A stretch of DNA of 64,000 nt from Platerodrilus igneus. Its lineage: Eukaryota > Arthropoda > Insecta > Coleoptera > Lycidae. Location: contig JARFIW010001254.1 of assembly GCA_036346225.1 (NCBI GenBank), positions 593,001-657,000 on the forward strand, in the 5' to 3' direction. Position numbers and translations under genes: made by a program. The notes under the pieces were generated by a model that was not told the origin of the DNA, made no database searches, and saw only the letters and a list, made by a program, of their open reading frames with translations. Positions 29,639 through 31,036 of the stretch are shown here, in pieces (the first letter of the stretch is position 1; each line of letters begins with the position of its first letter).

Positions 29639-30162
29639 TGTAACGCGCTACTACTACCGCGTTTCTTTAATTTAAAACAAGTAATAACAAACGTCTTTAT
29701 TACTTACTGTTCACAAGTCTAATTAACAGTATATGCCTTATTTATAGATGTTTTCAGTCCACTTAACAATGAAGCACTATTACACTAATGAATTTACAAG
29801 CACTAATATCTTCTTAAATTAACTCCTTTACCATAGGTTCATTAACAACACTAACACTACTATTTATTTATACACTTCTATTTATTTATGTATACTACAA
29901 GCTGTATGAACATTAGACACAGCATATCACATTTATGTATACTTCAAAAGCTCAAAACTGCTATCACTTTACAACGTTATAATTTATATTAGACATTCAA
30001 GAATAGACTAACTCTTACATTCATAAGCGGCCTTATATATACCCTGCATTAAGATATGACTCATTATCTAGAACTTTGTAGAAGGATTCTCGAATGCTGA
30101 AGAATACGCTGTGCCCCGGGCGTTTGTATGTTTGACGGGTTGCCTAATAGTGGATCGCAACA
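29639..30162 (-). repeat. 3' LTR of the macrodomain gypsy
   Basis: 524 bp, starting TGTTGCGATCC and ending GCGCGTTACA on the minus strand. The Pol stop codon (30068) lies inside its U3 part, so about 32 codons of Pol are LTR-encoded. The TATA motif lies at 30031-30043. Confidence 0.95.
30031..30043 (-). promoter_or_regulatory. TATA box of the macrodomain gypsy LTR
   Basis: GGTATATATAAGG on the minus strand, also in the other LTR and conserved in the old solo LTR at 305-320. Confidence 0.5.
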
Positions 30163-31036
30163 CTGCCCCCTCTTTAAAACCGTTACGTCTCGTAACTGTA
30201 AATCCATCTTGACGCCAATTCGATGACTGGTGACGGTATCGGCAGCTATCTCCTCTGGTGCATCCACCGCGTCGTTGGAAGTAACAGTCAACACTCTTTT
30301 CTTGGTCTTGGTAGGCAACCGGTTGATAACAACAAACAAGAACCTGGACGTTGGTTTCCTGGAAAACTACTTCTAGCATATTTCGGACTATCCTCCAATC
30401 TAAGCGATCCAGTCCACAACCTAGCTTGGGAACCGCTAGTTTCGTTACTCCATTTTCCATCATCTGAGCTTTAAGATTCAGCAAAGCCTCCCATAGATGT
30501 CCATAACTAGGTCTCTGCCATGAAGAATTTTTGGTGACCAGATAGTAAACATAACGATTCATATCTTGAAGAACCAAAGCTTTTCCTACAGTTGGCTGCT
30601 GTTGTACTAATTCATCTACACATCCAAACTTTTTCTTAAAAACAACAGCTATTCCCCTTGACATTGCCAAATCTTGAGCTACGCAATGTGCAAGGGAATA
30701 CTCTTCTGGTGCTCTAAACAGATCTTGCTGTTTTTCAACAACAACGCCAAATCTCGCTTTAGCGGAACCACCATACGCCGCCATAAAGCTCTCAAAATCT
30801 ACATTTGGCTCATGATTAATAACTTGCCGAACACCATTATCATTATTCGAGTCTTCCTGGTTGTTGCCAGCGTAGGATGTTAAACGGTCAAAGTGTACCA
30901 CTTTCGGTTTACCACGAGGGGATCTTCTGATCCGGTACACTACATCATTAATCCTTTTAACACTTCGTACGGCCCTTCCCATTGTCTTTGTAGTTTTGGC
31001 GACAATCCACGTTTTCTTTGTGGATTGTACAACCAC
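30068..31036 (-). CDS. C-terminal part of gypsy Pol: integrase tail, macrodomain, CCCH zinc finger
   Basis: 322 codons open. Residues about 28-56 (RINDVVYRIRRSPRGKPKVV) are the integrase C-terminal module and continue the upstream pol frame if one A is restored in the run at 30955-30958. The start shown is therefore not a real initiator. Residues about 98-238 form a macrodomain of OARD1/TARG1 type: QDLFRAPEEYSLAHCVAQD, then RGIAVVFKKKFG, LVTK with Lys169, and VPKLGCGLDRLDW with Asp210. Lys and Asp in these two positions are the catalytic pair of OARD1, which removes ADP-ribose from acidic residues. Residues 251-269 form a CCCH finger (C-x7-C-x5-C-x3-H). Function in the element is inferred only. 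Confidence 0.88.
   Translation of the reverse strand: MVVQSTKKTWIVAKTTKTMGRAVRSVKRINDVVYRIRRSPRGKPKVVHFDRLTSYAGNNQEDSNNDNGVRQVINHEPNVDFESFMAAYGGSAKARFGVVVEKQQDLFRAPEEYSLAHCVAQDLAMSRGIAVVFKKKFGCVDELVQQQPTVGKALVLQDMNRYVYYLVTKNSSWQRPSYGHLWEALLNLKAQMMENGVTKLAVPKLGCGLDRLDWRIVRNMLEVVFQETNVQVLVCCYQPVAYQDQEKSVDCYFQRRGGCTRGDSCRYRHQSSNWRQDGFTVTRRNGFKEGAVLRSTIRQPVKHTNARGTAYSSAFENPSTKF

Follow-up and report, generated by a model that had tools for sequence, protein, structure and literature searches.

Why should the Pol polyprotein of an insect retrotransposon end in a macrodomain resembling a host enzyme that removes ADP-ribose? This question is raised by a Ty3/gypsy element located on the reverse strand of a 64,000-nucleotide stretch of transposon-rich DNA (hereafter the window) from Platerodrilus igneus (GenBank assembly GCA_036346225.1, contig JARFIW010001254.1, positions 593,001 to 657,000). 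The last open reading frame (ORF) of this element (30068-31078, reverse strand, 336 amino acids (aa)) is open throughout and encodes the end of the integrase p58 region, a macrodomain and a CCCH zinc finger, an arrangement that an original prediction, generated by a model from the sequence letters, had singled out. In the current work we consider it rather probable that an insect Ty3/gypsy lineage captured a host TARG1-type macrodomain which is still a hydrolase and which would erase ADP-ribose around the integration complex.

Architecture of the element and identity of its terminal domains

The element is assigned to Ty3/gypsy by its paired long terminal repeats (LTRs) of 524 bp and its ATAC target-site duplication (Table 1); the domain order protease, reverse transcriptase (RT), RNase H, integrase is found in its single-frame relatives, and the Pol fragments of the window are ordered alike. 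Identical LTRs, an intact Gag-protease frame (668 aa) and a final frame ending in the LTR had been part of the original prediction and were all recovered, the final ORF running across the polypurine tract to a stop codon within the LTR. Two Pfam domains exceed their cut-offs in this ORF, namely Integrase_p58_C (E 9e-10) and Macro (E 1.4e-5). The integrase tail, which had been placed in one frame with the macrodomain, shares that frame from position 30961 downwards, but the first 25 residues of the predicted span are out of frame. Further upstream the Pol of the window is fragmented, in that the Pol of a relative aligns to it in pieces, with approximately ten frame changes (by our count) between 33654 and 30955.

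A sequence search of the PDB matches human TARG1/OARD1 chains (E ~1e-37, covering residues 100-234 of the predicted span), the three alignments shown being gap-free, and this E-value rules out a chance resemblance to a macrodomain. The predicted fold, when compared with TARG1, is an ALC1-like macro fold which aligns without gaps over 141 residues at 44% identity and in which the Lys/Asp dyad is in position, Lys169 and Asp210 aligning with TARG1 Lys84 and Asp125. Both the TARG1/OARD1 assignment and the active-site position of the two residues thus stand as originally predicted. No MacroD-type viral macrodomain emerged as best structural match, TARG1 and DarG being placed well above the viral rows listed. 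Across 37 representatives, obtained by 80% identity clustering of 159 retroelement domains, Lys84 is present in 34 and Asp125 in 33 of the 35 with data, and the residue at TARG1 position 42 is basic (Arg/Lys) in 33 of the 37. Uniqueness of this Arg to retroelements was rejected, as position 42 is also basic in 51 of 136 prokaryotic or phage relatives.

The CCCH finger, likewise predicted, is supported by its ligand pattern (C-x7/8-C-x5-C-x3-H), although the window sequence falls under the Pfam cut-off (19.2 vs 20.5 for PF00642); the best three CCCH models give E-values of 1e-4 to 1e-3, each below its own cut-off. The fingers of two relatives, P0042 and P0045, exceed the PF00642 cut-off.

Table 1 Coordinates of the Ty3/gypsy element and its features in the window
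Feature	Position	Strand	Basis
Ty3/gypsy element	29639-36205	-	paired LTRs and ATAC duplication
5' LTR, 524 bp	35682..36205	-	no mismatch to 3' LTR
3' LTR, 524 bp	29639..30162	-	no mismatch to 5' LTR
Target-site duplication ATAC, one side	29635..29638	.	flanks LTR
Target-site duplication ATAC, other side	36206..36209	.	flanks LTR
Probable primer-binding site, starting TGG right past the LTR	35662..35680	-	position and sequence only
Gag with CCHC knuckle and aspartic protease, single open frame, 668 aa	33621..35627	-	ORF list, Pfam
Pol (RT, RNase H, integrase), several frames as assembled, ~10 frame changes	30955..33654	-	
Integrase p58 C-terminal domain (PF22938), same frame as macrodomain	30881..30961	-	Pfam E 9e-10
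TARG1/OARD1-type macrodomain, ~141 aa	30326..30748	-	Pfam, PDB, predicted fold
Catalytic lysine codon, ORF Lys169 = TARG1 Lys84	30530..30532	-	alignment
Catalytic aspartate codon, ORF Asp210 = TARG1 Asp125	30407..30409	-	alignment
Arg at TARG1 position 42 (human: Ala)	30656..30658	-	alignment
CCCH zinc finger, C-x7-C-x5-C-x3-H	30230..30286	-	sequence pattern
Polypurine tract, overlapped by the ORF	30163..30175	-	sequence

Distribution of the macrodomain among insect elements

A first protein search, the matches of which include host enzymes, picked out 40 of 609 candidates, and a second search, for long proteins, picked out 202 of 587, the best 120 of which were listed. Beetle hosts named among the matches listed are Aromia, Pyrocoelia and Callosobruchus, whose taxonomy was checked, together with Molorchus, Harmonia and Gonioctena, which we take to be beetles; the leafhopper Macrosteles, also checked, is represented by two gene models, both of which begin at the p58 end. 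Four relatives (P0042, P0045, P0064 and P0065; 1373-1447 aa) carry protease (whole or partial), RT, RNase H, integrase, macrodomain and finger in a single frame. Residues 200-860 of P0045 (about RT to the integrase zinc finger) were used as a query and gave 7891 matches out of 8000 scored, the best 120 being listed. A macrodomain is present in 20 of the 121 polyproteins scanned, one of the 20 being incomplete, and the complete ones extend ~190-280 aa beyond p58. Macro-less polyproteins with a located p58 end mostly terminate 6-24 aa past it (59/65), the remaining six extending 80-618 aa. The finger pattern occurs in 12 of the 20 domain-bearing polyproteins and is missing in one clade of the macrodomain tree (P0020, P0022, P0023 and P0028), which includes the leafhopper sequence.

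In a Pol tree of 68 rows, which omits ten proteins that are short or multi-copy as well as 16 of the 61 macro-less and 28 of the 32 undecided rows, and for which a row was scored as macro-less only when ending at most 30 aa from p58, the macrodomain marks one clade (SH-like approximate likelihood ratio test, SH-aLRT, 99). Of its 24 rows, 19 carry the domain (window piece counted), two are without it and three are undecided. Domain presence changes three times on this tree, for which one gain followed by two losses would be the best reading.

In the insect's own genome (2.71 Gb, 1723 contigs) 124 copies were scored from 21514 first-look candidates, and a lone fused pseudogene is rejected by this number. 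Six of the 124 have an open frame of 1400 aa or more that includes the domain, one of the six having a stop within the match. Copies with gypsy pol directly upstream, which the original prediction had suggested looking for, are many, both among proteins and in the genome, and its denial of a chance fusion is borne out by these copies together with the E-value of ~1e-37. Its claim that the lineage is live goes too far for the window copy, the Pol of which is broken as assembled; a recently active family may be argued for from relatives and other genomic copies.

Five gypsy proteins (P0043, P0180, P0167, P0189 and P0225) bear the labels Erysiphe pulchra, Klebsiella pneumoniae, Ips erranti-like virus 3 or Rickettsia endosymbiont, and are probably insect DNA inside other records.

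Selection on the macrodomain

As far as sequence comparison goes, the macrodomain is constrained. Its mean identity among 16 long proteins is 50%, with 27% for the preceding linker and 80% for RT, and gaps make up 2% of the macrodomain vs 13% of the linker. The ratio of nonsynonymous to synonymous substitution rates (dN/dS) was determined for the window and a domain-ranked set, consisting of 2.8-kb pieces of 80 genomic copies ranked by macrodomain protein similarity, six of which (L182, L186, L187, L212, L215 and L218) were dropped as being partial and having unrelated flanks. Internal branches contain zero stops and have a dN/dS of 0.21 for the macrodomain, 0.25 when finger and tail are included and 0.33 for an RNase H-integrase control, the corresponding values for terminal branches being 0.52, 0.54 and 0.41; dN/dS is 0.26 for p58 plus linker and 0.36 for the finger part. 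In this set the catalytic Lys is retained in 80/80 copies, the Asp in 78/80 and the four finger ligands in 79-80/80.

Considering that ranking by macrodomain similarity lowers dN, a domain-blind sample was used as a check, namely 20 of the 134 copies scored when the RNase H-integrase piece served for the ranking. Internal dN/dS is 0.25 (N 8, S 13, p 0.0016) and terminal dN/dS 0.48 (p 0.057); the Asp is present in 20/20 copies and the Lys in 14, the remaining six being gapped, and one copy contains a stop. Purifying selection on the domain, as envisaged in the original prediction, is therefore seen in both samples.

Frame interruptions in genomic copies

The macrodomain is gap-free in 73 of the 80 domain-ranked copies. 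In the 20 domain-blind copies, deletions within the macrodomain are nearly all of one base, 47 of 66 falling in runs of 4-5, and in 81 longer pieces 89 of 241 one-base deletions fall in runs that make up 5.8% of the bases. Six recurrent deletion sites represent 4-6 separate events each on the tree, vs one event at 13 of 15 substitution sites. Homopolymer errors of assembly would be the simplest cause of these single-base deletions; recurrent slippage during reverse transcription, or real decay of many copies, may be other sources. The window misses one base at each of six sites present in most copies (2.6-kb part, compared with 80 copies), gaps that look like assembly error; the Pol breaks of the window in this part are of the same kind as the deletions in the other copies, which would fit its identical LTRs.

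A sublineage with inherited Pol breaks was rejected, the 11 deletion sites requiring 0.76 steps per minor copy vs 0.42 for 167 substitution sites (75 sequences). Two of these 11 sites, one seen in 12 copies with 5 steps and the other in 16 with 6, behave no worse than substitutions, and single Pol breaks may be inherited, since some copies match the open piece of the window end to end.

Origin of the domain

In a macrodomain tree (104 rows, 145 columns), the bootstrap of which had not settled, all 23 retroelement rows fall into a single clade (100/97) that joins Anopheles OARD1 and two further sequences (98/95), apart from the phage and bacterial rows, so that a bacterial or phage source is rejected. 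Sawfly sequences group weakly with vertebrate OARD1 (87/74), and because of these two placements an insect donor is rated as likely only, with eukaryotic host OARD1 thinly sampled (11 rows in this tree; 13 sequences in the residue comparison).

The outgroup comprised 141 phage or bacterial OARD1-like loci (75 on viral contigs and 66 on genome contigs), none of which has, within the DNA examined, a match to RT or integrase; the Lys is present in 138/138 aligned and the Asp in 141/141. The TARG1-like macrodomains encoded by the 75 viral contigs (L001-L075) are possibly antidotes to DNA ADP-ribosylation. TARG1-like macrodomains also occur in proteins of 518-1073 aa with no integrase domain listed (P0066, P0154, P0155 and P0033), among them extended forms of OARD1 from Neodiprion and Athalia, and next to PF05773, which we take to be RWD, in the metagenome proteins P0034 and P0038.

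Proposed function and alternative explanations

We propose that an insect Ty3/gypsy lineage took up a host TARG1/OARD1-type macrodomain, probably once, which came to follow the integrase C-terminal domain and to precede the polypurine tract, with a CCCH finger after it in many members. By means of its Lys84/residue-125 pair, TARG1 is described as removing ADP-ribose that is linked to acidic residues, detaching entire chains from proteins and clearing ADP-ribose off the ends of nucleic acids (in the account of PMC7050489); it is also described as freeing ADP-ribose from DNA thymidine (in that of PMC9411070). The captured domain has most likely remained a hydrolase, in which the lysine would attack the distal ribose and the aspartate would activate it and resolve the adduct, upon which ADP-ribose or the entire chain would leave the acceptor. 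As an integrase tail it would ride in the particle, and with the complex of integrase and complementary DNA (cDNA) to the target, and would there clean ADP-ribose off host proteins such as PARP1 and target chromatin, or off the element's own DNA or RNA ends; either may be the target. The original prediction had suggested that PARP marks may be erased on the particle or at the site of integration, the finger targeting RNA; such roles are putative, and the finger would bind nucleic acid. In mammals, SIRT6 is reported to mono-ADP-ribosylate KAP1, silencing L1 (as outlined in PMC4695847), and ADP-ribose marks can therefore act on retroelements. A bolder proposal, which we hold tentatively and place short of an even chance, is that insects put ADP-ribose on retroelement integration complexes or on their cDNA/RNA as a defence, to which the gypsy clade responded by fusing host TARG1 to its integrase as an antidote, in parallel with DarG.

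Several observations weigh against a retained hydrolase of this kind. Position 42, mostly Arg or Lys in the retroelements, is Ala, Ser or Gly in 12 of 13 eukaryotic host sequences (basic in one). The rate at which the macrodomain evolves is roughly double that of RT-integrase. The Asp is missing from P0175 and P0177, which form a clade of two rows, P0177 also lacking the Lys, and P0146 likewise lacks the Asp; in P0175 and P0177 the macrodomain and finger region is still open with an altered ligand loop, and their domain is perhaps only a binder. Retention across relatives, the absence of which would by the original prediction have told against it, is mixed, 19 rows of the Pol clade carrying the domain but P0164 and P0171 lacking it and P0169 retaining just a finger remnant. 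Each of the 20 domain-blind copies shows between one and five deletion events in the macrodomain (417 bp), leaving, as assembled, 7-281 of ~410-416 bases in the frame of the window. Insect-restricted alphaviruses are described as having lost macrodomain catalytic residues, and antiviral PARPs are said to be absent from mosquito genomes (both as stated in PMC7729036); a vertebrate-style PARP target may therefore not exist, and the vertebrate PARP-virus model would suit insects poorly.

The losses and damage in these five proteins (P0164, P0171, P0169, P0175 and P0177) and the deletions in 20/20 domain-blind copies are what a captured gene fragment, hitch-hiking passively and decaying, would leave behind. 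Such a passenger is nonetheless quite improbable, given the internal dN/dS of 0.21-0.25 on stop-free branches, the contrast in identity and gaps with the adjoining linker, and the repeated origin of the recurrent deletions. An artefact in which a cellular OARD1 gene adjoins, or is chimeric with, a gypsy element could appeal solely to the broken Pol of the window copy, and is refuted by the 124 genomic copies, the single-frame polyproteins of other assemblies and the occurrence across several insect families; we give it practically no credence. Were the domain a reader instead of an eraser, binding ADP-ribosylated chromatin or PARP1 and steering integration like the chromodomain of chromoviruses, its location at the integrase C-terminus would be in keeping with this, as would the open domain without complete dyad in the P0175/P0177 clade; for chikungunya virus in Aedes, the critical property is reported to be ADP-ribose binding and not hydrolysis (according to PMC12632316). 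Reading does not need the dyad, however, which is kept in nearly all representatives, and we regard this alternative as unlikely. Somewhat less unlikely is a narrower form of our proposal, overlapping with it in probability, in which the main substrate is ADP-ribose on the element's cDNA or RNA, in the way that DarG and TARG1 act on DNA, and the nucleic acid would be presented by the finger; against it, 8 of the 20 domain-bearing polyproteins, one of them incomplete, are without the finger pattern.

Returning to the proposed integrase-bound hydrolase, macrodomains are already known as counter-defence factors of RNA viruses, and considering that insect-restricted alphaviruses are said to have lost the catalytic residues and mosquitoes to be without antiviral PARPs, and yet the dyad is selected here, the integrase-fused TARG1 suggests that some step of ADP-ribosylation is of importance for insect retroelements. 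Candidate marks would be those on integration complexes, on target chromatin or on the nucleic acid of the element. Since the source enzyme is well studied, substrate tests of the isolated domain are straightforward.

Other features of the window

Pieces of a BEL/Pao element (Peptidase_A17, DUF1759), including a 960-aa open frame, are located at 23083-26669, and pieces of a hAT-type transposase (DUF4371, Dimer_Tnp_hAT) at 18218-20208. Another gypsy-type element, distant from the first (RNase H; ~27% identity to P0045), has left remnants at 5118-7691, and an open frame of 357 aa at 45152-46225 has no match in Pfam.

Comparison with known systems

The domain resembles the ALC1-like macrodomain hydrolase TARG1/OARD1 (C6orf130) in fold, gapless 141-residue alignment, dyad and 44% identity, but differs in being fused to integrase, often with a CCCH finger thereafter, and in having Arg or Lys in place of Ala42 (33/37). 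The element shares with Ty3/gypsy (Metaviridae) members with an Integrase_p58_C tail the Gag, protease, RT, RNase H and integrase order, LTRs and short target duplication, some related entries being named "transposon 412" or "K02A2.6-like"; the domain-bearing form extends ~190-280 aa past p58, whereas most macro-less forms end 6-24 aa past it. Chromoviruses carry a chromodomain at the end of integrase and are thus alike in having a host-type domain at the integrase C-terminus, the difference being a chromodomain instead of a macrodomain. RNA-virus macrodomains (coronavirus Mac1, alphavirus nsP3) share the macro fold and their residence in a mobile genetic agent.

In the open-access literature searched, no account of a gypsy Pol with a macrodomain was found, subscription papers, Repbase notes and most preprints being outside the scope of the search. 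The nearest known case is that of the epsilon-like endogenous retroviruses of ray-finned fish, which have macro domain ORFs (Basta et al. 2009, cited in PMC4977317). These are likewise LTR retroelements with a macro domain, and, by the description in the citing paper, to which our comparison is confined, they differ in that the macro domain lies in additional open reading frames and the host is a vertebrate.
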